DNA of 64,000 bases, taken from NCBI GenBank assembly GCA_021018995.1, contig CM037591.1, forward strand, positions 7,942,001 to 8,006,000. The letters are read 5' to 3'. The position numbers and the translations under genes are program-made. The notes under the pieces were generated by a model. The model worked only from the letters and a program-made list of their open reading frames with translations, had not been told where the DNA came from and did not search any database. Below are positions 5,848-46,188 of the stretch, piece after piece. The number at the start of each line of letters is the position of its first letter. Within the stretch, counting starts at the first letter, position 1. The stretch comes from Chloranthus sessilifolius (taxonomy: Eukaryota > Streptophyta > Magnoliopsida > Chloranthales > Chloranthaceae).

Positions 5848-6126
5848 TTACGAGCCTAGTAGCTTCTTCCATCTCGCGTAGCCTATAATGAAGAGAAAAA
5901 GCAAGAAGCAGACAGCTGAAGTGCCTCCGATGATGGGGCCAAAGATGCCACTGATTTTGTACAACGAGCATGGGATGTTCATACCAAACATCCCAGCTAT
6001 GAGAGTCTCTATGGCTATGGCAAAGGATGCGATGGTCAACGTCAGCTGGAGCTGGATGAGTTCATTTCTCTGGTTATCAAGTTGGATGTTTACGTAGTCT
6101 TCTGTGTCATCAATGTATTCACGAAC
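5848..6126 (-). CDS. MRS2-4: MRS2-4 coding exon 4 (membrane segments, GMN motif)
   Basis: 279 nt: 92 residues and TAA. Acceptor gtttaacag at 6135-6127. Starts [20 protein letters not shown], followed by [10 protein letters not shown], the first membrane helix ([17 protein letters not shown]), GMN, a short loop ([10 protein letters not shown]), the second membrane helix and [10 protein letters not shown]. The GMN tripeptide forms the ion selectivity loop in the CorA family. Confidence 0.96.
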   Translation of the reverse strand, partial: VREYIDDTEDYVNIQLDNQRNELIQLQLTLTIASFAIAIETLIAGMFGMNIPCSLYKISGIFGPIIGGTSAVCFLLFLFIIGYARWKKLLGS

Positions 6127-9100
6127 CTGTTAAACAACGGAAACAAAATAGACTTCCACGTAAACTACGAGAAGATACCGGAGCTAGGAGATCAATATAT
6201 ATGATATCAAGGTATCTCAGAATTCTATTTAGAAAACATGTTTATACTAGAGAAATTAACTTATGCAATCTCAGATTACCCATAAAAAAAGGACCTGACG
6301 TGTCCGTCATTTAAACACCAAAATTGTGTTTAAGTGATTTTTACACCATCAATGGTTTTAAGATGTGGGTGATCCGTACCGTCAAAGTGATATATCATAG
6401 ATTGAAGTGCAACAGGCCCAAAAATGGTGCTTTAGGTAGATTTAAACCATCCGATCTGTGGCCTATAACATCAACCATTGTTTTTAGTTTTAATGGCTGA
6501 TATTACAGTTCATGGTTTACATCCACTTAGGCATATTTCTTTGGGCTGAAACATGTTCCAACGATAGATTGCCACTTGGACAATTTAGATTGATCATAGA
6601 TGTGTGCAATGATAAATCACCTTCAATGATGTGAGATACAAATCTAAGTTTAATGGTGTAAGATCATTTAAACACTATTTTGGTGTTTAAATGTTAGCCA
6701 GGAGCCATTATCCCTAAATAAAAATGAATTTTTTTTAAAAATTTTTACAAGGCATAGAAAGTAACGTATTTAATGATAGTATTTACATAAACATATAGAA
6801 TATGTAGATTCAAAATGCCAATAATTAGATATGGCACCCAATTAATCATGATTATCATTGCTGCCTTGTCCTATATCATTTTGGATTTAGATATGAAGGA
6901 CGATAAAGTTAAATGTTGGCATAGTAGATGCAGTTGCCATTAAGAGCAAGAGAATGGTTTCATAAAGGTAGTGGGAGCAGGCAGAATTGACATTCCGGAG
7001 TGGGAGTAATGCCTTGGGTTCCTGCCACTAAGCAACCGACGGAGCTGTGATCATGATCACTGCTGTCCAAATTGCTCATTTTGTTAGAAATTATTGCTCT
7101 AAACGGTAACTATTATAGCTTCGCATTTGGATCTTAAAACTTGATCATATAAATGATATAGTAACTACGAATCATGAATGTTATGCATTTTATATCTGTT
7201 AATTCCATCACCTAAATATAACAATACTTGGATGCTGAACTTTTTCTAATCCATAAAGAACTAAAGATTCATTGCTAATTCTGGTATGTATAAGAAAAGA
7301 GAGCGCCAACCTCCCATAACTATATGCTGTAGTGTCTGAAATGGTAATGGCTTCCTAAAAATAGAATAAACCTGAGACACCACAAGTTCTAACATATCAT
7401 ATATCTCTTCAAAACAAGAGTATTTTAGTAGGAAATGTGTGGTAACTCACTGTAAGAATAGACAATGGATGATTCTTAATATGATGCTGAATAAAGCTTC
7501 AAAAATCATCATATTTTTATTAATTCCATATAACAATTATTGTTTGACATTCTACTTCACAATATTCCCTGGAAGTCCTATATTGTACAAAACCAGTCGA
7601 ATCAAATAATGTTGCTTACAGATGATGTCAAATCCTCACTATTCTCCCCAATTTTATTTTAAATATATCATCAACAAACTTATCAATATTCAATCAGAAG
7701 AGATTTTGGGTTATTTATGATTAAGATAAGTGGTGTTAATGGTGGTAATAGGGTTGAAAACAGAGTAGTAGGTTTAGAGTTAGGGAGATCAGAGAAGAGA
7801 TGAGAAAGAAATTATGAGAAGGCTTAGTGAGTCAAGTGGTCCTCAGTAGAATTTACATTAAATTGACAATATTACATACACGCCCAAGAATACTACAGAC
7901 ACCCCATTACTAATATATTAATACACATGCTAACACTCCCCTCAAGCTGGAGCATAGATATCCAACATGCCCAGCTTGACAACCACATCATGCAGAATAC
8001 TGTGCCCAACAGCCTTAGTCAATACGTCTGTTAGTTGATATGAGGATGCAACATCAATAAGCACTAAGGGCATATCCCAAACCCTTTCCTTGACGAAATG
8101 AATGTCAACTTCAATGTGTTTCGTTGTTCCTTGAAGTACCGAATCTGAAGCAATCTTCTCAGAAACGTCATTATCACAATGAAGCGGGATGGAAATGCTA
8201 GTGGGAAAGCTCAACTCATAAAGAAGAGAACACAACCATAAAATCTCGCAAGTACCATGTGTAATGGCATGATATTCCGCCTCTACGCTAGGCCGGGTGA
8301 ACACTAGCAGTTACCACAGAGAAAATCATAATAACCTGAAGTAGAGTGCCGATCCGTGACAGACCCATCCCAGTCAGCATCAGTGTATCAAGAAATGCTC
8401 AGGTGACCATATGAACGATGACAGTCCCCAACTTGGGCTAGTTTTGAGGTGCTGAGGAATACGATGGACAACAACAAGATGAGGAGTGCGAGGCGCATAC
8501 ATAAACTAGTTGACTAAGCTAACCGCAAAAGTAATATCTGCTCTAGTAAGAGTAAGATAAATCAAGCAGCCCACCAAACGTTGATACTTATAGGGATCAG
8601 GGAGATGTAGCTGGCTTACAGTCAAACATTCCTGTCACTAAAAAGATCAATAGTATACTTCCATTATGAGCATGGTAGTCAAGGTAACACCATGGCAAAT
8701 GACGATGAATTCGCCATATGAACAGAAATGGCGGCAATGGTGAAATGGCAACACTATGGCAAAATGACATCATGGCGTCGCCATGGCGCTATTTATAAAA
8801 TTGACATAATAATTTATATTATAATAAGTTATAATTTTATAAACTATAAGTTATAATGCCTATAAATTAACTTATATGCAAGGTAGTTAAGGCAGTGTGG
8901 TGAGGTCATAGCGAAGAGGCTCGCCATGCCATGGCGAGGCTATATATTATTTTCTAATTTCATTTATTTATTAAAAATTAGATAATTAAGAATCAATAAT
9001 ATTATATATTTATATCATTACATGGGAGCTACAATCGACACATGAGATTTGAAGGCCATGGTGTAAAGATTTGATATTTTAAAATCTTTCTTTTGCCACG

Positions 9101-10019
9101 TGAAAAAGAAAGACTTGTTATTTTTCGTATCTATGCCATGTGAAACACAATCAAAGCCGTCTGATTTGAAGGCCATGGTGTGAAGATCTTTTTGCCAAAG
9201 TTTGGCACTAAAAGTGATCTCTATCATCTGATTCAACATATTCAAAGACAATCATTTGATTCAATGGTTGACTGAGACAAATCAGATGATAAAGATCATG
9301 TTTTGTGCCATCTTTGGCTGCAAATTTTTTTACATGATTGCCTTCAAATTAAATGGCTTTGATGGTGTTCCATGTGGCACAGTTCCCAAACGATATTGAG
9401 TATTTCTTTTTACTCAAAACTCAAGCTTATTGGTGGATGTGGACCATCCATTTGATGAACTTTAATATCAGCCATTGAAAGTAAGAACAAAGACTGTATT
9501 AAAGTTCGCAGTTGGGATTACCAATGGCAGCCATTGAAAATCTGACGCCTACAAGGGTCAATCTCCATCTATTAAACACCAACTTGGTGTTTAAATGACT
9601 TATTCATCACTTTAATGGTGCACGATCAGTTAAACACAAGCTTTTGTGTTTCGATTTCATTTACTTGAACTTAGGTTATAAGTTCTAACTTAAGTTATAA
9701 CTTATAACTTACAAGAGTTCAAAATTATAACTTATAAACAAAATGTGCTATCATTTATAATTTATAATCATTTATCTTACAACTCAAAAAATATATATAT
9801 ATAATCAGTTATCTTACAAAATTAGCACCATTTTTTAAAAAAATTAATCGATTGTCAAATAGCATCTATAGTGGCGCCATGGCGCTATACCGCCATGGCG
9901 TGGCCATTTGGAGACTTACGCCATGTACCTCAATATGGCGATTTCCCTCACCATTCGCCATGGCGACGCCTTGACAACCATGCTTATAAGTTATAATACT
10001 TATAATTTAAAAGTTATCA

Positions 10020-10067
<48 letters not shown>

Positions 10068-13000
10068 TTATTTAGAGTTTGGAGACCAAATCTCCTCTCT
10101 TTCTCGTCTTTTCACTCTCTTACGCAACTCTTATCTTTTGCGTCTCTCTGTCTCTCGTGTCTCTTTGTCTCATATCGTCCCCAACAAAAAAATACAGGTA
10201 CGCTATTTTTTCTTTAAATCTCTATCGTCTATCTCTCATACCCTTTCTCGCATGCAGCTCCTTTCTCTTTCTCTCTCAGTTGGCTAATTTTTTCTTTATT
10301 TATACCTTCGCAAGCTTAAGATCTTCGCCTCTATAATCACTAAACTCTTTTATAGGTTTCTTGAAACGTCTATTACGAATTGAGCAATAGGCGACACTAC
10401 AGTATGTGTCGTTGTGTACTTGAATATTTCATATCTTTTAATTTTTCTATATTGGTTGATATTTCATATTTATATTTTATTTATACTTACTCATATTGCG
10501 ATTTTATTAATGTTTCATATGTCATAATTAATTTTTTCTCTCTATTTATTGCTATTTATTTATGCTTGATTAATTATTCGAAATTTTTTATCCTTTATAA
10601 AAATATAAAAATTAAAAATACTCAAAAAATTTTAAAAATAGATATTAATGATTAATATATAAAATAAAAATTATTAAAAAATAATAATAATAAGTAAATG
10701 GCCTTGCCATGGCATGGCAAGCCTCTTCGCCACGGCCTCGGCACACCGCATTAACTACCTTGGTTGTGAGAGAAAGATCCACCTTTAAAGCGAGCCATTT
10801 CAAACTCCCCCCCAAAAAATAATTCAAACTCCCCAAATCTTTCACTTCAAAAATAGACTTTCGAAGTCTACCAACTTTCTTTGTCTTCCCCTGAAGCAAG
10901 AAGCCAGGGGGAGGGTCCATATAAATCTCCTATGTCAAATACTCATGTAGAAACGCATTCTTCATATCTAACCGGTGAAGGGGGCAATTGATTTGTTGTA
11001 ACAGAGATAAGAACTCAGACAAAAGTCAACTTAGCCACTGGAGCAAAAGTGGTATCATAATAATACCATACGTTTGGGTAAATCCGCAAGCAACAAGGCG
11101 GGCCTTCTACCGTGAGACACTGCCATCAAGGGTATGTTTCACTCCAAACACCAACTTACAACCCACGATTTTCTTCCCAGGAGGTAGGGGGACCATTTCC
11201 CAAGTATGATTACCCTCTAGGGCATTCATCACCTCTACCATAGTTGTTTTCCATGAGGGTTAAGAGAGGGTCGCATGAATAGTGTGAGGTTTAGTAACAG
11301 TATCAATAACAAAGAGGAAGGCCCTGTAAGAGGGGGAAAAAACAAGATAACAACCATATATTGCAATAGGATAAGGGTAGTACAAGATCGAACCCCCTTG
11401 TGAAGAGCAATGGTAAATCCAAGTCAGATGAGGGAGAGGAAGAGGGAACCCAACCAAGGGTCCTCGGGATGATCCACCTGCATAGAAGGTTGCAATGAAG
11501 GCCTGACAGAAGGGGTTCCATGCATATGTTTGTGAGCATAAGTGTGAAATTTCCTTTGTTGTTGTAAGGGAGGCAGAGTGGGATGTGTAATATCAACATT
11601 CTCTTGTATTGGAGACGAGATAGGAGGAACAAGAGGATGTTGTGTAGGGGTAGTGGAGGAGGTAATATGAGGTAATGAAGGCATAAAGTCAATAGGCAGA
11701 GTTACATGGAATAGATCAGCAACATGTGCAGATAGATGACAAGACTTAGACTAATGAGAGGAAAAATAGGGAAAATGCGCAAAAAGGGTAACATCCAATG
11801 AAGTAAAAAATACGAGAGACTTGGGATCATAACACCCATATCCTTTAGACACTCCAGAGTAACCAATGAAGATACACTTGATAGATTTATCATCTAACTA
11901 TTTCCGATTAGGATGAAGGCTCTACACAAAGCAAGTACACCCGAACATTCATGGTTCAGTAGAAAACATAGAATCAGTAGCGCGAAGAGCGAGAAAGGGA
12001 CTTTGACCATCAAAGACCTTGGAAGGAGTACGATTAATTAAGAAACATGCTGTAAGAACGACCATTGATCAATAAGTCTTCGACACAAACATACTCCTCC
12101 ATAAAGAACGTGCAACCCTAATGAGATGCCTATATTTGCGTTCAGCCACCCTATTTTGTTGAGTATAGGGACACGAAAACTGATGAATAATGTCATGCTC
12201 CCGAATATATTAGGCAAACAAATTGGAGGTGTACTCTCCACCGTAGCTGGATCAAAAAGTTTTCATGATGCACCATATTGAGTCATAACCATAGAATGAA
12301 ACTTCTAAAATTTAACTAACACTTCATCTTTTGATTTCATGAGGTAGACCCAAGAGGCACTGGTGTATAGCGAAACCCCTCTAGAGAAACAACCGGAGAA
12401 CGACCCTAAACATCTGAACGAATCAACTCAAAAGGAACATTGCACCTGTGCATGCGAGTAGGGTAGGTACTTCGGTTTTGTTTAGAGAGAGTACAAATCT
12501 CACATTGAATTTTAGAAGAATGCAAACAATTCGAAACGAGGGGATCAGTGAGCACAAGGTTTGATAACCAACATGCGCTAATTTGGCATGCCAATTAGAA
12601 AGGGTATCATGGTTGGCATTGACAGGGAAGTGAGTGGAAAGATCAAGTGAGGAGTTACTAGCAACAGTGGCAGCAATAGAACACTTATGGTCAAAATTCA
12701 AATTAAACCTCCCTTTTCAATGTCTTTACCAACAACCTGCTTAGTGGTAAGATCTTCAATAATATAATGAGAAAAGAAAAAAGTAATAGAGCAATTTAAA
12801 TGTTTAGTGTGGCTACCAACAGAAAGCAAATTTGTAGCAAGATGAACATTAAGGGCCTGAGACAACGAAAGAGAAGGTGATACTGGAATAGAACCAACAT
12901 TGGTAACAGGGGTAGAGGAGCCATCAGCTAACTGTACCTGTTCAGCTGATCAAAAGGTGGGGTAATAAATACCCAGTGGAATATCTTAAATAAGATAAAA

Positions 13001-16000
13001 GTTATTTCCAGTTAATTGGATAGCATATTATGGTTATGGCTGAACAATTAAATCAGCCCGCCAATTCAGGAGTGACAGAAACCAATTCCGGGGTAATTGC
13101 AGGAAAGGATCTATATTGGTTAGATAATTGCTCAAAATAAGGTATGACATACTGGCATCTGATTGAGCATGCATGACATATATTTCTGGTTAGTGTTTTG
13201 GTTATTTCAGACAGCTCTGATTTTATCGCATGCTTAGTTATTCAATTTCTGAGCATTAGTATTACGTGCAACACATAGTTATGCATTTGACATGTATTAC
13301 AAGTTTTGAATTTTTTATATAATTTGTGAATTAAAATTTGATTAGCACAGTGTCATTGTATTTCTGATATCCAGTTATTCTGAAAATAAGATATTTCTGT
13401 TTTTTTATATTCAAGCCTGGAATACCAATTCCGACAAAGAGCTGGATCAAGAATGGTAAATTCAGGGCAAGGTACCACATTGAGAATAATTTCTGAAATA
13501 GCTGGCCAGCAAATGAATGAGTTCTGATTTCTGGACCCAGATAAAAATTTCTTATATCTCGACCCTGAAAGAACTGGGTATATCTGTTTCTGTTCTGAAC
13601 CCTGGATGCAAATTAGTTCTGATTTCTAGATCCTGGACGCAAGGTAGTGAGCATCGGTATTCGTGGTCCCACTACTCAGCAGTATGGTTATGGTTGCCAC
13701 CCAATTGCTATAGTACGGGTCGATAACATTAAGTAAAAGAAGTGGATTTACGAAATTTGCAAAATTTTCAGAATAGAAAATTTTAATGAAAAACCTACAT
13801 TTGATTGCATTTAGTCATTTGCACTGCACTGTTTCAGTTATTCTATTCTGAGGCTTTTGGATTATTTTCTGACGCATGAGCATAGTAGCATACACATTCA
13901 TATTCTTTGTATTTATAGACCTGCGAGTACCTACCTCAGTTGTGTTTATTTCGGAATGTCAGTTGCGAAGAGGTAGGTCTTGCTGAGCAGTGGTTTTTTA
14001 CTCACCCCTTGTGTTTAATACACAGGGAAGGTAGTCGAAAAGAAAGGAAAAGGTTTAGCCGATTAAGATTGTTAAGACTTTGATGTGTAAAAATGTAAGA
14101 ACGCATAGTGTGCGTGTGTTGTTGTTGCAAAACACTCCAGTTGTTATCAGCATAGTGACATTTCAGTGAAAATTTTCAAAATTTCACCGAAATTCACTGA
14201 AACGGGAGTCTGTCAAAACTTTCAGCGAAATTTCGGTGATTTCGCCGAAATTTCATCAATTTCACCTAAATTCATGAAGTTTCTTAATTTTTGACTACTT
14301 TTTAAATAATAAATAATATTTGTATAAATATTAAAAATATATTTTATATATTTATTTCTACTCCCAGAAATTTTTCTGAAAATTTTTCAATTTTTTTCCG
14401 AAATGACCCCCCATCGAAATATTGCTGAAAACGAAATTTGTCACTATGGTTATCAGGTCACCTGTACTCTTTTTTTTTTGATCAGTAATAGGATTATATA
14501 AATAAACCAGCAAGGCGCTGAAGCCGTATACAATCGTAATAATCCAAAAGAAATTCAAACAAGCGCACACCGACAACAAAACAGCAAGGCCTGCGAGAGG
14601 CACTCAAAAGGTCCGGATAAAGCCCCTCATGAGGCCGTCCTTACCCTGGGTCCCACCTGAAGTGGGATCCGTTGGCCCCGGTTCCTCCACTCGTGCCCCA
14701 TAGCGTGACAAGATCCGAAACCGCCCTGAGAATCACAGGAGCAGGTTTAGATTTTCCTTCAAAAATTCTGCTATTCCGCTCACGCCATAGGCACCACATC
14801 ACTGCAAAGAGAGTAGCCCTCCACGCAACCCTCTCCCCATGTGTTGGCACAGCTGCCTCCCAGCTGATTAAAAGCGAGTGGGGGGACCGAGGCATCGTCC
14901 ATGCCAAGCCAAAGGCTTTAAGAATGCCTCCCCACACCTCATGAGCGACATGGCAATGAAGAAGCAGATGAGCCGCGGACTCCTCCTCCTCGGAGCACAT
15001 ACCGCAGACCATGGAGACGTCCTTCCCCCTTCGACATAACTGGTCCCTGGTAAGAATTTTCTCCTTGCAGACCGTCCACACAAAAAATCTTATCTTTAAC
15101 GGGATAGATTCCTTCCACAGCCAACTCCCATCGAATCTGATGAGCGGTCTACCAGTACTACAGCTCCTTGACGCTGAAGTCCCCCTTGCGATTAAAATTC
15201 CATAACCGAAGATCTGTTCGAATACTGTTCCTCTGCACCGACAGAAGCACATTCAGCAAGTCCACGTAGCTGCCCACCTTGCTATCTCTGAGTCGGCGTC
15301 TGACAACAACCTCCCAAACAATCCTATTGTTGGTGAGGGAAAAAAACTGATCAATCCTCCTCCCCTGGTTGGGGGAGAGGGCGTAGATCTGCGGAAACCG
15401 ATCACGGAGCAATCCCTTATCCAACCACGGATCTTGCCAAAACCGGATACGAGACCCGCAGCCCCAACTGAACCTAACCCCTTTAACCATACCCTCCCAA
15501 GTGTACTGATACATTTTTGTTTAATATGGAGATGAAATGGAAACTTTCTGTTGGATGTGCTTCTGTTCTAGTCCCTTTGTTATCACTTGTCAGGTCCCTA
15601 TATGTTTGTATGATTTACAATCCTAATCTATGTGGGTGGATTTAAGGGTGTTACAAAAGAAGAATCGAGTATTACTTGCACTAGATGAAGCACAATACAT
15701 CATAGGCAGCATGCACATTCGGGTCTTCAAACCGCAACATATAAAGCACATATATCAGATGGAGAAAGGAATAGGGTATACCAGAAGTGGATTGAAGAAG
15801 CCACGAAGCCTAGAAGAGGTGTTGAGATACCAGACACTCAGAAGAAGAGACGAAACCACGAAGTCCTTTCTGAAGGCAATATTACCAACCCCACGAGATT
15901 TGACAAATCTCTTTCAAAACTCAATCATCTTTCACGATATATGGTTCTAAGTTCTAACAACTCCTCTTGATGAAACTGGAAACCCAAGTGGTTTACTAAC

Positions 16001-31680: not shown

Positions 31681-31721
<41 letters not shown>

Positions 31722-32392
31722 ATTAGTAATTTACCCTTCTACTAAAAACTATAATGATATATTATTATCGCAAGCCTATATTATTATTTACTTAAAAAAA
31801 ATTAAGCCCTAAAACTAAACTATATTCTTATTTTATTTAAAAGAATAATAGATTGCACCATCTTGAAATTTTGGGTCCGAACTCGCGGCCACGAGCCAAA
31901 GCTCGCGACTATTGATGTACTGGTCTCGGTATTTTGGCCACAACTTTTTACTCTAACCTCGAATTAACGTTATTCTCGCGGCATTGGAAAGAAGACTGCG
32001 AGCTTTACAGCTTTGGGTCAAATAGCCATTCACGAATCTGACGTTTTAGAGGTCAAAATAGAGCAGCAAGTCGGGTTCAATTTTGAATTACCAAAGGTTG
32101 CACGAATTCAGTGTTATTTTCTAATTTTCTAATTCATGTATATAATATATCTTGCTTAAGGTCTTTCGATCGATGGTCATGATAAATCACAACCTAATAA
32201 TTATAAATACCTTTTAATTTAATTATCCAATAATATATATATATATATATATCAATTTTATCGTTTCAACGCAACCTCTTCGATAACACGAAGTGTTAGA
32301 CATTCGATGTCTCGTGAAAATCGAACTCTGACCTTCACGATATTGAAATCACACTAATAACTACCATATCCTATAAGTGTATTGGTGTTATG

Positions 32393-32451
<59 letters not shown>

Positions 32452-35400: not shown

Positions 35401-36016
35401 TTAGACGAACCGACGCCTTGGTCATCAAACTTTTCAATCCGAACCGTCGTAGATCTACTGTTCACGCTTTAAGATGTGGGTACCCATCAATCCATCTTGT
35501 TTTTCTCAGATCCCATCTCATAGGGTGCGTTTCGATCGTGCATCGACGAGTAAAAAAAATCTTATTTAAACCCTAATATCTCATAAATTAATAGATTTGC
35601 ATATTTAATATTATGTTTTCCCTTGAAAGTTGTATAATTTGTAGGCCATGTAATATTTTGTTTCTCCTTTCAAACAATCCTTTTGTTTGACTATTTAATA
35701 TTGTACTTTTCTATTAGGTTTTCATATTTAATATTTTATCTTCTTTTAAATATGTAAAATTAATTAAACTCTAATATTTGTAAATCAGATATATTGACTT
35801 ATTTGGAATAATACCCTATTGATATTGTTCATTTCTAAATCCATATAATTAGAAATTTACTCTTTTATTAAAACTGCAATTTTATATTCTCATCTATCTA
35901 AAACTAATTAAGCATTAAAATTTAAATCATATTCTTGTTTATCTAACCCCATTAATGCATCTTGAATATAAAGAAGAAAATAAACAAAACTAATTAAGCC
36001 CTAAGTTATTATAAAT

Positions 36017-36067
<51 letters not shown>

Positions 36068-36191
36068 CAATTTTATCGTTTCAACGCGACCTCTTCGATA
36101 ACACGAAGTGCTAGACATTCGATGTCTCGCAAAAATCAAACTCTGACCTTCACGTTATTGAAATCACATTAATAACTACCCTATCCTATAA

Positions 36192-36232
<41 letters not shown>

Positions 36233-39200
36233 GAAATCTAAATGTAAATCTATGATTTGTGTATGATAATGTTATGCTTCAATCTTTATCATGATATATG
36301 AGTTATGGATATATTAAGCCATATGTACGCGAGTATATGAGATCATGCCTATGCTTGGGCGTAGTGATTCGCCGAAATAGTATCGAAGTGAGGAATACAT
36401 CATATTCACATGCCTTACAACTCATGGTGGTATGAAACATCATGGCGAGTCAGGTGAGTGCGAATTCAGTGTAGCCTCGTATACGGTGACATATACAGTG
36501 ACCTATCACCCCGCGTTTTAACATGAGAGGATAAGATATGAGATATGATATGAGATTCGGGTTTTAGGCCTTAGCTGTGGTGAGGTTTCTTTTACGAACA
36601 CGTGAAACTCATAATATTGGCGTCCATGTACGGATGCAACCCTCTATGGTAGTATGGACTATCACACGAAGTACATTCAGGTTACTATGAAACTTTTTCC
36701 TTGGGAAGCGTGATTTAGGGAAGTTACCACACTGTAGTTTATCCTAGAATTAAGTGTAAGAGTACAATAAGATATGAGTAGGAGATAAGATAAGTTATGA
36801 TACGAGTACGATAATAAGACACTGCTATGTAGACCAGTATAAGATTGAGAACTTAAGTCTCTGTACGTGTCGTTCCTTGCGTAACCACCGCAAGGGCAAC
36901 AATGTCTTTCAGCCAAGACGAATCTCTGGGAGAGATTATGAGTATGAGTATGAGTCTGTTTATGAGTTACGTTTGGCCATTCTGTCTCCCAATTAGGCTG
37001 GGTGGGAGTATGAGGAGGATATGGAGGGCGATTAGATAGATTATGATATGGTGGTATGATATTATGGTGACCCTCACATAGTAGCTCGAGCACCGACGTT
37101 GGCACAGGTCGTTTAGGATTTTATGAGTATGTTAGTTACGCTCATGCGATATACAGACGTATGTGAGAGAATAATGATAAGACATGGTATGTTATGAGTT
37201 ATGGTAAGGTACGTTATGATATAAGTGTCTAGATCATAATCCTGCATTTATGTTATGATACGAGATTTACGATATGCACTTGAATTTGTCATGTTCTTTC
37301 AGATTTCTTGTTATATTATATTTATCACTCACTTGATGCACCCACAATGCACTTGAGTAGATTGGGGTGGATTGGTAGTGTAGCCATTGTACTCATCTCT
37401 CGACAATCTAACTGCACGTGATTACGCTGGTGGAGTAGGCGTCAGCCATCCAGATCTCGCCAACGCCGATTTCATTAATCCCACGGGCGTTGAATACCAA
37501 GAGCCTTTTGAGGGCGGCGCAGCTGAGTACCAGGAGGACCTCGACGCTAACTTTGATCCGAGCACCGATTATTGATAGTTTTAGATTCGATATCGTGTTT
37601 CATTTTATACTTTTGTGTTGACTATATGATTTCATTTTATCAGATTTGTCTCCGACATTTATTTCTGTTTATTTATGAATTTCCAGGGTTTTCATCACCT
37701 TGTTTAGGTTATTTATGGCTGCCTTGATATTCCACCTTTATGTGTTGGCCGTCACGGATTTCGTGAGACCAGATTTACGCGATAACTCTGATTAGGTGTA
37801 TGTCCGCTTAGCATATCCGGGATATGTGTGGGTCATAACTCGAAATTCTAGGCCCTCGGGATGGGGTAGAATTTCAGTGTATGATAGAATGGTATCAGAG
37901 CTCAGGCTCTACTTCCTCGAGGACTATATAGGTTATATAGGTACAATATATTGATTGAGGTTATGATGATTCAGATAGACCTGAGACTTTAGATCTTTTG
38001 AGGACTTATTGGTTTCAAGGAAGTTCGATCGCTGATGATAGAAGACCCTAAGGTTCAATTTGGTATTTAAAGATTTATTTACGAATGACTTATATAGTTA
38101 GGAACTTATGAGAAACACCAGAAATGATCTATAAGGATTGAAAAGTAATGGATGAACTTTTCTAAAATTGAGGGGTGATTAGATAAATAAATCCTTGAAG
38201 ATTGACTGTTTAAGATTCTAGATGATCTGAGATGCCAACTAAAGGAATAACTGATTCTCGGTTATATTAGAAATGACTTGAATAATTGGATCAAGTGTAT
38301 ATCGTACTAAAGTTTGACATACCACACATTCGGAGAAATTTGTGACATCAAATCAAATTATTTTATAAATTAATGAATTAGAGTCAACCACCATCATAAG
38401 AGAGGGGGGGCCCTACCTTGATGATATCAAATATTAGGTGTCGAAAATATAGAAGTTTTGCAAGTGATTCGAGATTAACAAAGAATTGATGATATTAGTT
38501 TATAATCAATGCCTAATTTTCGAGGACGGAAATTTTTAAGGAGGGGAGAATGTAACGACTCTGATTTTTATTAACGTTGGGTCGCTGACTTTTGATGAGA
38601 AGCTGATGTTATAGAGAAGTACCGAGAGCTCATTGCCTCATGTACGTAATTTTCGAGGACGAAAATATTACAAAGGGGAGAGAATGTAGCAACCCAGATT
38701 TTTTTACTTGATATTAACGGTGTTAGATGATGTACTACACCGTGCACTGTGCTAACGTTCCACACCGGAACCGGAACACACCCTCTTTTTAGACAAATTC
38801 TGATTTTTCCTATACCAATATTAGACTCATTGCGAAGTGCTCGTTGATACGATTCCAACAATAAATATAATTTGTCGATTTTCGATAAGAATATAAAAAG
38901 TTACTCCCGTTTTAAGTGATCAAGCAAGTCAAAGGGTATAACTGTAATTTCAGGAGAGAAACATCATTTGCTTCGATGCTTACACAAAGCACTGGAACGA
39001 AACCTTTTCTCAAGCTATTCAAGTCATGTATAAATTCTTATTGCGTGGCAAAACTTCTATTCTATTAAATCTTCTACGAAAAGTCTTAATTAAAATTAAC
39101 CTAAAACTTCCTACCATTATAAATAAAAGGGAAATTTGCATTTTCGACCCTACACGTTTGCTTATTTGCAAAAACGGCCCTATCGTTTGAAACTGTGCAA

Positions 39201-42200
39201 AATCGGGCAGCTCCAACCCAAGCCGTTTCCACTTCAGCATCCACCTGTTTTTTCATTATATATGTGTTTATTTTTCATTTTTTTATTGTCCATTTTTTCA
39301 GTTCTGACTACAGTAGTGTTCGCTCTCTTATAATTGCGAGCGTGGTATCCGGCGTTTTAAGACAGTGGGCGCTATTTTACGATAGCGGACGATATTTTAT
39401 GATAGTGCTCGCTAACATATGATATATTTTAGGGTATGAAGAAAACATAAAGATTATTGTGTTTATTAGTTAGCGATCTGCCAAAAATATAAGAACGTAA
39501 TAAGTAAAAAAAAAACCAGTTAACATATTGTTATCTAAAGATAGAGACCATCATCTTAAGATAGATAGTGATTGCTATCTTAAAATGGTGGCTTTGGATA
39601 AAAAGAAAAAGAGAATTTATTGTGTTATCCAATATAAGTTTTATTAGTTAGTTATCTACAAAAAATATAAGAACAGAAGACATAAATAAATATATAAAAA
39701 AATTCAAAAAATCCACTAACATACCGCTATCTTGAGATAGCGATCGCAACATACCGCTATCTTAAGATAGCGACCGTCATTTTAAGATAGCGACCGCTAT
39801 CTTGAGATGGCGGTTGCTATTTTTTTTTTTTTTTTTTTTTTTTAAGGTAGCGGTCGCTATCTTAAGATGAAAAAGAGAGTTTACTGTGTTATCCAATATA
39901 AGTTTTATTATTTAGTGATCTGCAAAAAATATAAGAACGGAAGATATAAATAACAAAAAAAAAATTCAAACAAGCCGCTAACATTCCGTTATCTTAAGAT
40001 AGCGATCGCTAACATACCGCTATCTTAAGATAGCGACCATCATTTTAAGATAAGCGACCGCTAACTTAAGATGGCAACGGCTATCTTAAGATGGCGGTCA
40101 CTATTATTTTTTATTTATATTTTTTTGTCGTTATCTTAAGATAGTGACCAACAAACCGCTATCTTAAGAAAAAATATATATATATTTTTTTTTAGTTAGC
40201 GGTCGCTATCTTAAGATAGTGGCATGTTAGTTATTATTATTATTATTTTATTTTTTTTAAGATAGCGGTATATTAGCGGTATGTTAGCGGTTGATATCTT
40301 AAGATAGCGATATGTTAGCAAGTTTTTTTTTTTTTTTTACAGTAATTTCATACCATGTACACAATTAAAATAGATTACCATCTAATGTCGTCTTTAGATA
40401 GCGACCACCAACTTAAGATAGTGGTATATTAGCATTTTTTTTTTACAATGATTTTATACAATGTACACAATTAAAATAAATTATCATCTAATGTCGTCTT
40501 TAGATAGCAACCGCCAACTTAAAAAAAGGGACGACAAAAAAATAATACAAAATAAACATATATATATATATAATGAAAAAATAGGTCCATGCTGACATGG
40601 AAACGGCTTGGTTTGGAGTTGGCGTATTTTGCACAATTTCAAATTATAGGGCCATTTCTGCAAATAAGCAAACTTGTAGGGCCGAAAATATAAACTTTCC
40701 TAAATAAAACTTTAAAAGCTCTCTACTCTCTATAATCAGAAATTATTCTCTCCCAACTCTTAGCAGAACTGACACCTTGGGCATCAAACTTTTCAACCCG
40801 ACCTGTCGTAGATCTACCGTTCACGCATCAAGAAGTGGGTACCCATCAATCCATCTTATTCTTCTCAGGTCCCGTCGCATAGGGTGCATTCGATCGCGTA
40901 TCGAGGGTTAAAAAAAAAAATCTTATTTAAACCCTAATATCTCATAAATTAATAGATTTGCATGTTTAATATTATGTTTTCCCTTGAAAGTTGTATAATT
41001 TGTAGGTCAAGTAATATTTTGTTTCTCCTTTCAAACAATCCTTTGTTTGGCTATTTAATATTGTACTTTTCTATTAGGTTTTCATATTTAATATTTTATC
41101 TTCTTTTAAATTTGTAAAATTAATTAAACTCTAATATTTATAAATCTAATAAATTGACTTATTTTGAATAATACCCTATTGATATTGTTTATTTCTAAAT
41201 CTATATAGTTAAAAATTAACTCTTTTAATAAAACTACAATTTTATATTCTTAACTATCTAAAACTAATTAAGCACTAAAATTTAAATCATATTCTTATTT
41301 ATCTAACCCCATTAATGGCATCTTGAATATAAAGAAGAAAATAAATAAAACTAATTAAGCCCTAAGATATTATAAATCTTATATATATATATATATACTA
41401 ATTTACCTTTCTACTAAAAACTATAATGATATATTATTATCGCAAGTCTATATTACTATTTATTTGAAACTAATTAAGTTCAAAAACTAAACTATGTTCT
41501 TATTTTATTTAAAAGAATAATAGATTGCACCATCATGAAGTTTCGGGTCCGAACTCGCGGCCACGAACCTGAGCTCGCGACTATCAATGTACTAGTCTCA
41601 GTATTTTGGCCATAACTTTTTACTTCGACCTCAAATTGGCGTGATTTTTGTGGCACTGGAAAGAAGGCTGCGAGCTTTACAACTTTGGGTGATATAGCCA
41701 TTTCACGAATCTGACGTTTTAGAGGTCAAAATAGAGCAGCAAGTCGGGTTCAGTTTTGAATGACCAAAGGTTGCACGAATTTAGTGTTATTTTCTAATTT
41801 TTATGACTAATATTACTGTATATATTATATCTTACTTAAGGTCTTTCGATTGATGGTCATGATAAATCACAACTTAGTAATTATAAATACCCTTTAATTT
41901 AATTATCCAATCATAGTAATATATATATATATATATATCAATTTTATCGTTTCAACACGACCTCTTCGATAACATTAAGTGTTAAACATTCGATATCTCG
42001 TAAAAATCGAACTCTGACCTTCACATTATTGAAATCACACTAATAACTACCCTATCCTATAAGTGTATTGGTGTTATGTAAATATATATACATATAAACA
42101 TAATGAAATCTAAATATAAATCTATGATTTGTGTATGATAGTGTTATGCTTCAATCTTTATCATGATATGAGTTATGGACACATTAAGTCATATGTACGC

Positions 42201-45200
42201 GAGTATATGAGATCATGCCTATGCTTGGGTGTGGTGATTCGCCGAGATGGTATCGAAGCGAGAAATACATCATATTCACATGCCTTACAACTCATGATAG
42301 TATGCGACATCATGACGAGTCGGGTGAGTGCAAATTCAGTGTAGCCTCGTATACGTTGGCATATACGGTGACCCTATCACCCCGAGTTTTAACATGAGAG
42401 GATAAGATATGAGATATGCTATGAGATTCGGGTCTTGGGCATTAGATATGATATGAGATTCGGGTCTTGGGCCTTAGCTGTGGTGAAGTTTCTTTTACGA
42501 TCACGTGCAACTCAGAATATTGGCGTCAAAGTACGGATGCAACCCTCTATGGTAGTATGGGCTGCCACACGATGTACATCCAGGTTACTGCGGATTTTTT
42601 TCTTGAGAAGCGTGATTTAAGGAAGTTACCCCACTATAGTTTGTCCTAGAATTAAGTATAAGAGTACGATAAAATATGAGTAGGAGATAAGATAAGTTAT
42701 GATACGAGTACAATAATAAGATACCGATGTTTAGGCCAGCATAAGAGTAAGAACTTAAGTCTCTGTACGTGTCGTTCCTTGCGTAGCCACCTTAAGGGTA
42801 ATGTCTTTGAGCCAAGACATATCTCTGGGAGAGATTATGAGTATGAGTCTGTTTATGAGTTACGTTTAGCCATTATGTCTCCCCATTAGATTAGGTGGGG
42901 AGTATGAGGATATGGAGGGCGATTAGATAGATTATGATATAGTGGTATGATATTATGGTGACCCTCACATGGTAGCTTGAGCAGTGACTCTGGCACAGAT
43001 CGTTTAGGATTTTATGAGTATGTTAGTTACGCTCATGCGATGTACAGACGTATGTGCGAGAATAATGATAAAACATGGTATGTTATGAGTTAAGTTAAGA
43101 TACGTTTGGATATAAATGTCTACATCATGGTCCTGCATTTATATCATGATACAAGATTTACGATATCCACTTGAATTTGGCATGTTCTTTTAGATTTCTT
43201 GTTATATTATATTTATCACTCACTTGATGAACTCACAATGCACCTGAGTAGATTGGGGTGGATTGGTGGTGTATCCACTGAGTTTACGTGACTGAGTAAA
43301 CTCATCCCACGACATTCTAACAACTGCAGGTGATTACGCTGTTGGAGTAGACGCCGGCCATCCAGATCTCGCTGACGTCGATTTCATTGATCCCACAGGC
43401 GTTGAATACTAGGAGCCTTATGAGGGCAATGCAGCTGAGTACCAGGAGGACCTCGACGCTGACTTTGATCCGAGTATCGGTTACTGATAGTTTTAGATTC
43501 GGTATCGTGTTTCATTTGATACTATTGTGTTAACTATATGATTTCATTTTATCGGATTTATCTCCGACCTTTATTTCCGTTTATTTACGGATTTCCAGGG
43601 TTTTCATCACCTTGTTTAGGTTATTTATGATTGCCTTGATATTCCACCTTTATGTCTTGGCTTTCACAGATTTCGTGGGACCAGATTTGCGTGATAACTC
43701 TGATTAGGTGTATGTCCGCTTAGCATATCCGAGATATGTGCGGGTCATAACTTGGAATTCTAGGCCCTTGGGATGGGGTAGAATTTCGGAACGTGACATA
43801 TCCATCCTCTCCTTTTCGGCCGATCTTGTCATCATGGTCATTGAAACCTTCAACGGTGACAGATCGGGGTAGGAGGTAGAGCAGTCGCCATCAGCCTGAG
43901 CCGGAACCACCAGACCTCCGCGAGCCCCAGCCTGTTGCAAGCAAGTCTCAAGATATTCCGGTGACTGTTCTATTTCCCCCTCCTCCAGCTCCTCCGCCCA
44001 ATGTACATGGCCCCCCGACGTTGACCCGACACTCCTCGTCACGGTTGCCCTCAGATGTTGCCGTACCGGCGAGGGCACATCCCTCTACGAGGATCTTTTC
44101 CCCTGCCGAACGTCCAAATCAACCCCGTTCCCGGTTGGGTTGATGAAAGACCCCGTTGCTTCCTTCTCAGGATGCCTCGAGAGGAGAGCCCTCTCACCCA
44201 ACTCCACTTCTATGAAGATCCGAATGCTCTGTCCGCAGATTCAACAACGACCAGGATCCGGACGACGCTCGTCTCCGGCAAGTTGACAATGCTCTGACCC
44301 ACGAAAATGAGAGATCCACTGAGAGAGCCGACCGCCTCGAAGACTTTGAGACTCCAAGCATGTAATGGCAGCCCCATAGCCAAATCCAATTCCCCCCCAT
44401 CGAAAGAGAGTGGACTAACCTCTCCGGCGTGCACATCCCAACGTCGGCAAGCCCCCATGACGCCGTCAATATAAAACTTCTTTTGTGAGCAAAACCTCTC
44501 GGCATCGACCTCATTGTGAAAACGAGCCAGATAGCTAGTAGGAGCAAAAGAGGAAATGTAAGGTCGTTCACTGAGGCCCCACCTTCTATGTAACCATTTG
44601 TAAATCTAAATAGGAAGCAGGGAATTAATGGGGAAATGTATGGTTGACCAAAAAAATGGTAAGTTAGAGGCTAAGGACCTCAGCTCAGGATTAGCGCAAT
44701 CCAAAATAGGCGGTCCACAACCGCCACCCTTCCCCACGACGTCAGCCCCTCTTGGGAGACAACCTGTAGAAGACTGACCCTCGAATCTCACGGTGTCCTT
44801 AACCACATTCGCAAAGGAGACATCGGGGTGAACCCTAACAAATCACGAGCAGCGATGGGCCCCACTGCTATCCTTCGATCCTGATGCACCCCTAAAGCGC
44901 TTACCCGCAATAGACCAACCATTTTGGTGGTCTTCTGCCTAGATGCCATTAATGATCACCTGATCCATAGCCCTCCCCCTCAGGACCTAGAACTTGTTGT
45001 TTACTACAGGGACCGCCGTTGTTCTACCCACCTCGCATCCAATACGATGGCATAGTGAACGCCTTTTGAAGTTCACATTGTGGCAAGCCGGGCAAATCCA
45101 GTCGCCCACCCGCAGCACAACCGCTTGCACCATATGGATTATGAAAGTTAAGTTAGGACCTTAGCTGATGATACCCTAGCCAGCACCATGTCTCGAGTTC

Positions 45201-46105
45201 GAGTTACGAAAGGGGGACCTGGGAAAGCGCTACTTGGGGGCCCAAAGAGGGGTACCGAAGTGAAAGTGCCATAGTGTGGGTCATCGTGGAGTCTTGGAAA
45301 GGGCGGTGGTGTGTTATGACCCCGAAGTAATAAAGGACTAACTTTCCACTCCATTAATGCCTAGGCATTGTTGGAGTATAGGTTAGGACCTTAGAAAATT
45401 CCTTCAATCAATAACCCAACGTACACAAAAGAAACCGACCAATCAAACAGGTTGTCATCCGTAACTCTAGCATATAATAGAAAAATACTAATTTATTTTT
45501 GATGAAATTTATAATCAAACCAAGAGAAAAATAATTCCCAATTCGCAGAGAACCATTCAAATAATCACAAAAGCAATCGAACAATCAACAATGTCCATGG
45601 ATTACAATCCCTAATTCTCTTATAATACAAGCATATCGATTATTATGAATAAAAATCAAACAAAACATAAATAATTAACATACTCCAATAAAATCAGAAA
45701 AACCTATCATTTAATCGATTCCCCCAACCCCAAGCATATAACCAAACAAACCACCACTCACAATTTACAAAGAATCAAACCACTCCACCAAAATTTAAAA
45801 AGAAAAAAAAATTCACCGAGGATATTGGAGGAGTGAGAGAACACAGGGCCGAGGATCCTGAGATCCCGAGCAGGGATCGAAGCGCGCTTGATGATCGCGC
45901 TCTTATCGCATTCGATGAGCTCCGATTCTCCGTACCGATTGAATCGCATCCAGAGACGAGATCCAGTCTTCTTCTTGGTCTTCACAGCAGCTCCAATGGC
46001 GGTGGTGTTCGGATTGGTGCCCGAGGGGACAAGTGGCTGCATCTCGGCCGTCTTCTGTGATTGCTTGGTCTTTCTATGAAACGAAAAGGAAACTTTCTTG
46101 CCCAT
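5848..46105 (-). CDS. MRS2-4: MRS2-4/MGT6-type magnesium transporter, four exons
   Basis: CorA/MRS2-family Mg2+ channel. Family members form membrane pentamers; Arabidopsis MRS2-4 (MGT6) takes part in Mg2+ uptake and homeostasis. Coding exons: 46105-45817, 28634-28186, 17953-17666, 6126-5848. All three introns are GT-AG (phases 1, 0, 0) and the join gives 434 residues, against 436 for Arabidopsis as I recall it. Visible parts: basic N-terminus ([14 protein letters not shown]), SRLWMRF near residue 49, [20 protein letters not shown] (77-96), [16 protein letters not shown] (182-197), [18 protein letters not shown] (about 318-335), first membrane segment about 370-389, GMN motif 390-392, second membrane segment about 404-424, end [10 protein letters not shown]. 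These match MRS2-4 better than other MRS2 paralogues I can recall. No internal stop or frameshift is seen. The odd point is size: a 40.3 kb span that is about 97% intron, filled with transposons. TAA stop at 5848-5850. Confidence 0.95.
6285..6713. mobile_element. TIR element in MRS2-4 intron 3
   Basis: Inverted ends of about 65 bp share catttaaacaccaaaa, gtgtttaa, gat and tacaccat on both sides. The family is unclear (Mutator-like or other MITE). A single related end sits at about 9560-9640 (ttaaacaccaacttggtg). Confidence 0.55.
6714..7689. other. intron 3 sequence without recognised features
   Basis: AT-rich intronic DNA between the TIR element and the copia 3' LTR. I see no coding signal or repeat that I can name. 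Confidence 0.5.
7690..7935 (-). repeat. copia 3' LTR
   Basis: In sense it starts tgttagcatgtgtattaata right after the polypurine tract, and carries gaccacttgactcactaagc as the counterpart of the 5' LTR. The far edge is approximate. Confidence 0.65.
8670..9985. mobile_element. inverted-repeat element A with ccatggcg motifs
   Basis: Ends near 8670 (gcatggtagtcaaggtaaca) and 9985 (rc: gcatggttgtcaaggcgtcg) are imperfect inverted copies. Both are rich in gccatggcg palindromes. A common plant TIR-element end; no transposase seen. It interleaves with element B. Confidence 0.5.
9137..9385. repeat. long fold-back (arms about 110 bp)
   Basis: The left arm, with caatcaaagccgtctgattt and tttggcac, is matched inverted at 9270-9385 (rc: catcaaagccatttaatttg, gatggcac, atcatctgatt). 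Arms are about 75-80% alike by eye with a short centre near 9255. Related phrases are scattered at 1490-1640, 46680-46880 and 61620-61760, so this is a dispersed family. Confidence 0.55.
10021..10064. repeat. (TA)n microsatellite
   Basis: About 22 perfect TA units in intron 3, inside the inverted-repeat complex. Confidence 0.9.
14151..14448. mobile_element. hAT-type MITE, 298 bp, perfect 8-bp TSD
   Basis: Inverted ends catagtgacatttc and gaaatttgtcactatg. Perfect target duplication gttatcag at 14143-14150 and 14449-14456. The interior is rich in ttcaccgaaattt. Same general style as the copies at 17429, 24891 and 62186. Confidence 0.85.
14470..15514 (-). mobile_element. 5'-truncated L1 LINE (ORF2 C-terminus)
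   Basis: A poly-A tail (plus-strand T run, 14470-14479) marks the 3' end. Upstream, minus-strand coding reads [20 protein letters not shown] then [20 protein letters not shown] and [18 protein letters not shown]. This is the reverse-transcriptase zinc-binding region (zf-RVT), followed by a hydrophobic/Trp-rich tail ([18 protein letters not shown]). Two overlapping frames (15514-15158 and 15252-14641) carry it, so there is one frame change near 15.2 kb. GC-richer than its surroundings. Truncated at the 5' end as is usual for L1. Confidence 0.85.
15656..16691 (-). other. 5' interior of the copia fossil, non-coding or unrecognisable
   Basis: Lies between the LTR-like piece and the copia 5' LTR. 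No domain can be recognised. Part of it (16280-16520) resembles 60950-61210, so a shared dispersed repeat is present. Confidence 0.4.
16692..16936 (-). repeat. copia 5' LTR
   Basis: About 245 bp, matching the 7690-7935 LTR over phrases such as aagccttctcat and the TAAT-rich start. It is followed in sense by a Met-tRNA-like primer site. Confidence 0.65.
17429..17599. mobile_element. hAT-type MITE, aaaatttcgg family, perfect 8-bp TSD
   Basis: Starts caaggttcaaaatttcgg and ends cgaaattttgatcctt. Target duplication tgctgata at 17421-17428 and 17600-17607 is perfect. It lies only about 70 bp from exon 3 of MRS2-4, on the downstream side in gene sense. Confidence 0.85.
17666..17953 (-). CDS. MRS2-4: MRS2-4 coding exon 3
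   Basis: 288 nt, 96 codons, phase 0 on both sides. Acceptor ctactaccag just above 17953; donor gtgagt from 17665. Starts [20 protein letters not shown], then [17 protein letters not shown], a serine-rich variable linker, and [18 protein letters not shown] ending TRNKILS. Arabidopsis MRS2-4 has the same order (DNEDMADLYLTRKWIQNQQ and [17 protein letters not shown]). It forms the long helical stalk before the membrane segments. Confidence 0.95.
18240..18590. mobile_element. TIR element with 12-bp direct repeat at its ends
   Basis: ggtctgtcccat flanks it on both sides (18228-18239 and 18591-18602). The ends are imperfect inverted copies (agttagttcactggttcgct; rc of right: tgttaattctctcgttcacc). 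The duplication length suggests a Mutator-type insertion, but the family is open. Confidence 0.6.
18990..22060 (-). mobile_element. L1 LINE remnant (ORF2), decayed
   Basis: Minus-strand frames carry parts of L1 ORF2 in the right order. [20 protein letters not shown] (about 21.9 kb) matches the start of the L1 [22 protein letters not shown] (about 21.7 kb) matches the RT TFIxLIPKK...DFRPISL motif. FWEDLW-like sequence appears near 20.0 kb, and a C-terminal stretch at 19.5-19.0 kb. The parts are in different frames with stops between them, and the middle of the RT is missing. A MITE sits at 20799-21002. Confidence 0.7.
20799..21002. mobile_element. MITE of the aggatcaaaat family in the L1 remnant
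   Basis: Ends taaggatcaaaatctcgg and ccgaaattttgatccatg are inverted copies. The interior carries cgatac/gtatcg and ggctgatacatatcc motifs. The flanks (ggtgtgat, gtcctgat) match at 5 of 8 positions only. Confidence 0.55.
22290..23400. repeat. 1.1 kb degenerate (CAT/GAT)n low-complexity tract
   Basis: Almost every third base step is cat/atc/gtc on the plus strand. Both strands stay open in short frames (Asp/Asn-rich on minus, His/Ile/Ser-rich on plus), which are by-products of the repeat. It probably grew from a microsatellite by slippage. Confidence 0.85.
23401..24449. other. intron 2 sequence, no gene seen
   Basis: Between the GAT tract and the RTE LINE. Low-confidence similarity to decayed LINE text; nothing I can name. 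Confidence 0.4.
24450..25875 (-). mobile_element. RTE-type LINE, decayed RT, interrupted by a MITE
   Basis: Minus-strand pieces follow the plant RTE reverse transcriptase in order: [18 protein letters not shown]...PDGIPIEV (about 25.4 kb), then a YKNKG-like stretch (about 25.25 kb), [15 protein letters not shown] (about 24.85 kb), [20 protein letters not shown] (about 24.7 kb), [11 protein letters not shown], and [18 protein letters not shown] (about 24.5 kb). The FADD box of the catalytic core is intact, but the frame changes several times. A hAT-type MITE (24891-25063) sits inside the RT. Confidence 0.8.
24891..25063. mobile_element. hAT-type MITE inside the RTE LINE
   Basis: Starts caaggatcaaaatttcgg, ends cgaaattttgacccttg. 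Flanks ctttgaac (24883-24890) and ctctgaac (25064-25071) match at 7 of 8 positions. Family of the 17429 and 62186 copies. Removing it makes the LINE text run on. Confidence 0.85.
25876..27850. other. intron 2 sequence, unassigned
   Basis: A moderately GC-richer stretch that could be old retroelement or LINE ORF1 text on the minus strand (frames near 26.0 and 27.1 kb), but I recognise no domain. Ends near 27.6 kb with gggagcgg motifs. Confidence 0.35.
27903..27981. repeat. degenerate (TG)n microsatellite
   Basis: tgtgtg/gcgtgc-rich run of about 80 bp in intron 2, about 200 bp downstream (gene sense) of exon 2. Confidence 0.8.
28186..28634 (-). CDS. MRS2-4: MRS2-4 coding exon 2
   Basis: 449 nt coding residues 97 (part) to 246. 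Acceptor ttgcag at 28640-28635; donor gtatgg begins at 28185 after CAG AAG. Contains [37 protein letters not shown], then a variable linker, then [16 protein letters not shown] and [17 protein letters not shown], ending LLARVQK. This is the central cytosolic alpha/beta and helical part of MRS2. The frame stays open past both ends of the exon into intron sequence, which should not be read as protein. Confidence 0.95.
28951..28970. repeat. (GA)n microsatellite
   Basis: About ten GA units in intron 1. The surrounding 28.64-29.62 kb shows nothing else I can name. Confidence 0.85.
29631..30344. repeat. three-copy 238-bp tandem repeat
   Basis: gcaagtaatggctcccat starts units at 29631, 29869 and 30107, exactly 238 bp apart. 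The third unit ends at about 30344. Copies differ at only a few sites (around the cctaggcgtatgc position, for example), so the array is young. Each unit carries tgtgcaca and an acgcgtacgc-like palindrome near its end. Confidence 0.92.
30356..30586 (-). mobile_element. LINE ORF1, 3' part (split by the gypsy array)
   Basis: Minus-strand frame ending [10 protein letters not shown] then TGA at about 30375. It continues the LINE text broken at 43803, since tatcc is shared at the two breakpoints. An internal 27-bp duplication (tatggcgtgtttgaaattca at about 30534 and 30556) is present. Confidence 0.55.
30587..34109 (+). repeat. gypsy array LTR1
   Basis: About 3.5 kb, with TA microsatellites at about 31687-31718, 32228-32252 and 32396-32451 and a short acidic frame near 33640-33800. 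Followed by the primer site. Confidence 0.85.
34110..34908 (+). other. gypsy array interior 1
   Basis: About 0.8 kb: primer site at the left, polypurine tract at the right, no protein domain. A second polypurine-plus-LTR-start-like motif (aaggaggggagaatgtaacg) lies about 150 bp before the true one. Confidence 0.8.
34909..37886 (+). repeat. gypsy array LTR2 (middle, shared)
   Basis: About 3.0 kb, roughly 0.5 kb shorter than its sisters. Serves as the 3' LTR of the left unit and the 5' LTR of the right one. TA runs at about 36018-36068 and 36196-36229. Confidence 0.85.
37887..38684 (+). other. gypsy array interior 2
   Basis: About 0.8 kb, clearly homologous to interior 1 along its length, including the doubled polypurine motif. 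The left edge carries the primer site tggtatcagagc. Confidence 0.8.
38685..43798 (+). repeat. gypsy array LTR3 with Mutator-like insertion
   Basis: 5.1 kb in all, about 3.5 kb without the insertion at 39129-40700. Ends cgtgaca, followed at once by the target duplication tatcc. Confidence 0.85.
39129..40700. mobile_element. Mutator-like (MULE) non-autonomous element
   Basis: Long terminal inverted repeats of about 120 bp (left gggaaatttgcattttcgac; right, rc, ggaaagtttatattttcggc, both running through gtttgcttatttgca and gccgtttcca). Perfect 9-bp target duplication taaataaaa at 39120-39128 and 40701-40709, the length typical of Mutator. The inside has no transposase; it is an array of ctatcttaagatagcg palindromes in both orientations with T- and A-runs. 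Confidence 0.92.
43799..45375 (-). mobile_element. LINE ORF1 (RanBP2-type zinc finger and DUF4283-like domain), 5' part
   Basis: GC-rich block (about 55%) in an AT-rich intron. Minus-strand pieces in order: a proline-rich start ([20 protein letters not shown], 45354), a zinc finger [17 protein letters not shown]...C (about 45.1 kb; RanBP2-like W-x-C-x2-C-x3-N), then [18 protein letters not shown] (about 44.35 kb), which fits the DUF4283 domain of plant LINE ORF1, then an acidic stretch [17 protein letters not shown] (about 44.0 kb). The frames are interrupted. The 3' part is at 30356-30586, beyond the gypsy array. No ORF2 follows, so it is either 3'-truncated or a captured or retroposed ORF1. 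Less likely it is a host RanBP2-type zinc-finger gene fragment. Confidence 0.6.
45376..45816. other. start of MRS2-4 intron 1
   Basis: AT-rich intron DNA between the donor and the LINE block. No repeats that I can name; probably the original intron sequence. Confidence 0.5.
45817..46105 (-). CDS. MRS2-4: MRS2-4 coding exon 1
   Basis: Codes for residues 1-96 plus the first base of codon 97. The ATG at 46105 sits in an A-rich context (cacaaaaATGGGC). The basic leader is followed by [14 protein letters not shown] and the conserved stretch ending HSSNIL. The exon ends ctcg before the donor gtgaat (45816 downwards). The G pairs with CC at the start of exon 2 to make the Ala of NIL-A-REKA, which confirms the phase-1 join. 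Confidence 0.95.

Positions 46106-46132: not shown

Positions 46133-46188
<56 letters not shown>

Follow-up and report, generated by a model that had tools for sequence, protein, structure and literature searches.

Can four coding exons scattered over 40 kb of transposon-laden DNA still constitute one intact gene, and what has filled the spaces between them? The locus that raises this question lies on contig CM037591.1 of Chloranthus sessilifolius (GCA_021018995.1), in a window of 64,000 nucleotides (positions 7,942,001 to 8,006,000) to which all coordinates given here without a contig name refer. A first-pass annotation made from the letters of the window had read it as an MRS2-4 magnesium transporter gene with three giant introns. 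We consider it highly probable that the locus, taken as a whole, is an intact MRS2/CorA-type gene with introns grown stepwise by transposon insertion and spliced normally, whose exon 3 has further copies borne by a CACTA element.

Gene model, protein and copy number

The gene model comprises four exons and three introns, as follows.

46105-45817, minus strand: exon 1 (289 nt; residues 1-96 and base 1 of codon 97)
28635-45816, minus strand: intron 1 (17182 nt; GTGAAT...TTGCAG)
28634-28186, minus strand: exon 2 (449 nt)
17954-28185, minus strand: intron 2 (10232 nt; donor GTATGG, acceptor end ACCAG)
17953-17666, minus strand: exon 3 (288 nt)
6127-17665, minus strand: intron 3 (11539 nt; donor GTGAGT, acceptor end AACAG)
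6126-5848, minus strand: exon 4 (279 nt; holds the GMN motif and the stop codon)

Joined, the exons yield 1305 nt in a single open frame of 434 amino acids plus TAA, with no stop or frameshift in the 434 codons, and GT...AG ends bound all three introns, whose phases, derived from the exon lengths, are 1, 0 and 0. From start codon to stop codon the gene covers 40258 nt, 3.24% of it coding. The first-pass annotation had claimed an exact 434-residue join, intact splice sites, introns of about 17.2, 10.2 and 11.5 kb and a coding share of about 3%, all of which agree with these measurements. Two features count against the preferred reading: the exon 1 donor, CTCG/GTGAAT, is not a strong consensus, and an out-of-frame ATG 17 nt 5′ of the start codon (46106-46122) opens a short overlapping upstream ORF. 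An AG microsatellite (46136-46186) lies near this upstream ATG, and an array of the self-complementary motif TCGATTAATCGA, with a period of about 20 bp, occupies 52238-52647 upstream of the gene.

The joined protein scores over the cut-off of 27 bits against both Pfam MRS2-like (6.6e-29, 101.3 bits) and Pfam CorA (2.6e-6, 27.4 bits), and all six matches listed by a PDB sequence search are MRS2 channels or MRS2 fusions, the best at about 2e-18. Because the Pfam MRS2-like match, the MRS2 structures and the breaks of paralog alignments at introns 2 and 3 concur, a chance join is excluded. We take the joined protein to resemble AtMRS2-4, which is the same protein as AtMGT6. These matches identify the predicted product as a plant MRS2/CorA-type Mg channel, and the translation of exon 4 contains FGMN, which includes the GMN motif used for recognising the MRS2 family (PMC10347230). 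The gene is probably an MRS2-4/MGT6 member, and the subclade name MRS2-4 appears plausible. Its four coding exons fall inside the range of 3-6 given for clade D, whose closest Arabidopsis ortholog is AtMGT6/AT3G58970 (PMC6345045), a likeness that is not specific since the ranges of other clades overlap. Tomato SlMRS2-4 has 432 amino acids, compared with 434 here, but is given as 6520 bp (PMC10347230), compared with the 40-kb span of the Chloranthus gene.

Is this the only such gene in the plant? Our own-genome searches cover an assembly of 2.169 Gb in 32 contigs, with the listed matches falling on C1-C15. The protein search, in which all 31 candidates were scored, returned 26 matches. Those of 96-99% to exons 1, 2 and 4 are confined to the window, residues 1-97 (exon 1) having their 99% match at this locus only, and the parts of exons 1, 2 and 4 found elsewhere match much more weakly and are paralogs or exon 3 copies. 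For exon 3, four other genomic places give matches that contain stops and are 66-81% identical in protein sequence. Since exons 1, 2 and 4 match closely in the window only, this search found no second close copy carrying them, and hence no trace of the second intact MRS2-4 locus that the first-pass annotation had named as telling against its reading. Its claim of one intact gene is borne out by the uninterrupted frame, the GT...AG splice sites and this lack of a second close copy. On its sequence, the gene looks functional and is apparently single-copy; its expression, splicing, silencing and Mg transport are what we infer from it.

Transposons in the introns

The following elements were recognised within the introns.

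30582-43803, unstranded: three-LTR array in intron 1 (self-alignment and LTR divergence; limits read by eye)
30587-34109, unstranded: LTR A, starting with TC, not TG, followed by an internal stretch to 34908
34909-37886, unstranded: LTR B, about 0.5 kb shorter than the other two, followed by an internal stretch to 38684
38685-43798, unstranded: LTR C, interrupted by a 1.57-kb insert
39129-40700, unstranded: 1.57-kb insert in LTR C, with inverted-repeat ends and a 9-bp target duplication, TAAATAAAA
44213-44605, minus strand: DUF4283 fragment in intron 1 (Pfam 1.1e-10, over cut-off)
24462-24728: RVT_1 fragment in intron 2 (over Pfam cut-off)
21426-21797: RVT_1 fragment in intron 2 (below Pfam cut-off)
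18239-18593, unstranded: MITE-like dispersed repeat in intron 2 (own-genome DNA search)
17429-17599, unstranded: 171-bp repeat insert in intron 3, with target duplication TGCTGATA
14644-15252: zf-RVT, a LINE 3′ end, in intron 3 (over Pfam cut-off)
12426-12716: gag_pre-integrase of a Copia-like remnant in intron 3 (below Pfam cut-off)
10651-10929: RVT_2 of a Copia-like remnant in intron 3 (below Pfam cut-off)

By self-alignment, the intron 1 array consists of three copies of a 3.0-3.5 kb unit, kept apart by two internal stretches that are each about 0.8 kb long. Besides the LTRs, it has the other hallmarks of an LTR retrotransposon: a 5-bp target duplication, TATCC, flanks it (30582-30586 and 43799-43803), the primer-binding-site-like TGGTATCA follows LTRs A and B (at 34113 and 37890), and a purine tract precedes LTR B (34909) and LTR C (38685). 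The pairwise LTR divergences of K = 0.115, 0.122 and 0.129 indicate that the three LTRs are of similar age and that the insertion is not recent. At the grass rate of 1.3e-8, these values would give about 4.4-5.0 million years. At 1.51e-9, the rate used for Chloranthus in the relevant passage of a genome survey, they would correspond to about 38-43 million years (PMC8626473). For the internal region of the array, the genome offers 1730 candidate places, of which 40 were scored; among the matches listed, two lie in the array and 38 others match at 86-88%, one extra short row at 80% belonging to one of these 38.

The insert in LTR C contains palindromic CTTAAGATAGCGG repeats and is presumably MULE-like, judging from the length of its target duplication, while the DUF4283 piece is taken here to mark LINE ORF1. 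Ten ORFs were Pfam-searched separately, with a match in six and none in four; five further intron ORFs had no Pfam match, and five ORFs outside the gene gave only TAXi_N at 48682-48936, below cut-off. No Rfam family reached its gathering threshold anywhere in the window. The first-pass description of transposon-built introns containing LTR arrays, LINEs and palindrome-rich DNA is matched by what is present, namely the three-LTR array with its target duplication, the MULE-like insert with its palindromic repeats, the Copia and LINE remnants and the MITE-like repeats.

Two observations concern the surroundings of the array. Just before it, at 29626-30343, a 238-bp unit occurs three times at 99% identity, a recent tandem triplication; and the intron 1 LTR family recurs outside the gene at 56116-57871, in partial, inverted copies that are 76-81% identical.

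Exon 3 copies in a CACTA transposon

One small additional find concerns the four places to which exon 3 alone extends its matches, and the segment in question is given here.

17600-18716, minus strand: donor segment, exon 3 with flanking intron, of which a CACTA transposon holds copies at four sites elsewhere

The segment of about 1.1 kb consists of exon 3, 763 nt of intron 2 and 66 nt of intron 3. Its four copies, at C3:132.99 Mb, C3:84.67 Mb, C14:13.04 Mb and C1:111.42 Mb, have identical limits and are 91.6-92.1% identical to it; they match about 17370-17428 as well, for an overall extent of 17368-18716. Among the matches listed by an own-genome DNA search (40 of 2796 candidates scored), the whole segment occurs only in the gene and these four copies. 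The copies are closer to each other (K 0.014-0.047) than to the gene (intron 2 K 0.072-0.077).

The carrier element ends in CACTA(C/T)AAAAAA and TTTTTTGTAGTG and has subterminal repeats of the GCCGTCTCCAA type. Both CACTA...TAGTG ends and a matching 3-bp target duplication were found in two of the four copies, the C14 copy (AAC; element of 7015 bp) and that at C3:84.67 Mb (TGC; 10088 bp), and just one of the two ends in each of the others (C3:132.99 Mb and C1:111.42 Mb). A Pfam search of nine of the 17 listed ORFs of at least 70 aa in the C14 copy found no transposase, all matches of these nine, including a weak MRS2-like one, lying below cut-off. A Helitron had been considered because self-comparison of the exon 3 copies showed no terminal repeats, and gave way to a CACTA element when ends of that type, flanked by target duplications, came to light; the intron 2 sequence inside the copies spoke against a retro-copy origin, which was likewise set aside.

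Exon 3 is intact in the gene, whereas an in-frame stop is common to all four captured copies and one of them has a second; the AG acceptor persists in four of four and the GT donor in three. The CACTA-borne copies are dead copies. Their content also provides a relative clock, since a later insertion in the gene is missing from them. The MITE-like repeat at 18239-18593 is held by all four copies and was present in intron 2 before the capture, while the 171-bp insert at 17429-17599 is missing from all four and is probably younger than the capture. The simplest order would place the repeat's arrival in intron 2 first, then the capture of exon 3 and the spread of the copies, with the intron 3 insert arriving sometime after the capture.

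Gene fragments borne by CACTA elements have been described in soybean (PMC1947982) and in other plants (PMC8903248). As excerpts of these two papers describe them, the Pack-CACTA and Tgm-Express elements likewise combine CACTA ends, a 3-bp target duplication, a captured host exon and several dispersed copies; unlike them, the present family has captured an MRS2-type transporter gene and has one stop codon common to four copies. Among the papers listed by a literature search on magnesium transporters captured by CACTA elements, none concerns that subject, judging from titles and the opening of abstracts, which is weak evidence of absence. It is conceivable, if very improbable, that antisense or small RNA from the four copies, at about 92% identity, acts on the single MRS2-4-like gene; if so, a transposon family would tune a magnesium transporter.

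Gene length in the same genome and the weighing of alternatives

How unusual is a 40-kb gene in this plant? Five other MRS2-family loci span 38899 (C1), 55197 (C14), 13550 (C14), 6466 (C7) and 3502 bp (C2), so that three of six, this gene counted, exceed 38 kb; these spans run from the first to the last detected piece, read from flanks, and their gaps may hide exons. The best pieces of the other loci are 38-47% identical to the gene, short pieces reaching 72%, and the alignments are interrupted where introns 2 and 3 lie. The interruption at intron 2, after RVQK, recurs in the C1, 13.6-kb C14, C7 and C2 loci with gaps of <0.1 to about 5 kb, and in the 55-kb C14 locus a piece ends there, the next exon not being seen. 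The alignments indicate that at least introns 2 and 3 are at old family positions.

Large spans recur in other families, if each chain is one gene and with the proviso that chains may hide undetected exons. Scoring 65 of 160 candidates for the myosin head (PF00063) gave 79 rows. Six chains with ordered pieces near both profile ends (32 rows) were used; the other 47 rows, lone pieces or short, compact chains that in some cases reach only 1-2 kb, were dropped. The selected chains span 14.4, 21.8, 25.0, 37.3, 48.5 and 83.4 kb, three of six being >35 kb, and one of them might include an amplified piece, since amplified myosin pieces occur. The 69 chaperonin rows (PF00118; 87 of 146 candidates scored) form 32 clusters, 14 of them multi-piece. 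Among the 13 chains that are ordered and span half the profile or more, five exceed 38 kb, eight exceed 20 kb and three are <4 kb; one uninterrupted row that spans the full profile (C1:31763845) was left out of this count. Genes of 40 kb are common in this genome though not general: the same families include compact loci (MRS2 at 3.5 and 6.5 kb, the three chaperonin chains <4 kb).

Published genomes point the same way. Long genes and introns are prevalent in Chloranthales and magnoliids, with LTRs a major contributor; across 2184 orthologs, six magnoliids have mean intron lengths of 1270-2390 bp and Chloranthus spicatus one of 3681 bp, with 876 of the orthologs over 20 kb in C. spicatus, where expression falls off once intron length passes 40 kb, and a mean of about 2.87 kb is given for Magnoliaceae (PMC8626473). 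Magnolia biondii introns have a mean of 2774 bp and a median of 525 bp (PMC7917104). The locus described here has LTR-filled long introns likewise, seen in one gene in detail and not in a survey. It also resembles gymnosperm genes, in which introns >20 kb are numerous, with LTR elements and LINEs inside and little reported effect on transcript accuracy in the relevant part of that source (PMC9364684), and spruce, whose introns have ubiquitous repeats (PMC4108047). The remarkable status that the first-pass annotation implied for a 40-kb gene is not supported: some MRS2, myosin and chaperonin loci are equally long or longer, and excerpts of published surveys agree (PMC8626473, PMC7917104, PMC9364684). 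For this genome, a gene built in this way is ordinary.

In the mechanism that we propose, LTR, LINE, Copia-like, MULE-like and MITE-like insertions would have enlarged the introns stepwise while selection most likely preserved exons and splice sites as the introns decayed. Pol II most likely transcribes through the silenced intronic transposons, and the spliceosome would then join the four exons normally; separately, a CACTA element would have taken up exon 3 with flanking intron and spread it to four other sites. In Arabidopsis, several kilobases of heterochromatic transposons are described as being read through, their cryptic poly(A) sites suppressed by the IBM2/EDM2/AIPP1 pathway (PMC10241880); by analogy, read-through of this type may operate in the Chloranthus plant.

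The heavy transposon load of the introns could also be read as the mark of a relic, a gene intact in sequence but silenced, or one whose transcripts end at poly(A) sites of intronic transposons so that no full-length mRNA arises. We think this quite unlikely: 434 codons have stayed free of stops and frameshifts although the intron 1 LTRs differ by K 0.115-0.129, no second close copy is there to take over, and the captured copies of exon 3 have decayed. In so repeat-rich a region, the exons of one compact gene might also have been separated by repeat sequence misplaced during assembly, but the insertions have clean target duplications, in the four captured copies exon 3 runs without a break into 763 nt of intron 2 and intron 3 is matched on either side of the later 171-bp insert, and large spans recur in the unrelated myosin and chaperonin families; such an artefact is extremely improbable. 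An intact, normally spliced gene is the reading that we retain. It shows in one clear case how old introns can grow to tens of kilobases and leave the coding sequence unharmed, and carries two warnings for annotation: single-exon matches in this genome may be transposon-borne fragments, and real genes here can span 40 kb and more.

Pieces of other genes are dispersed in the genome as well. Among the matches listed, many short myosin pieces (profile about 25-77, 77-131 and 149-201; for example, C7:27763086, C4:72817620, C2:80323834 and C14:96890065) look like an amplified gene fragment, several having identical frame length and stop pattern, and eight dispersed chaperonin pieces on C3, C4, C6, C8 and C12, whose profile limits nearly coincide (about 235-326), resemble one too.
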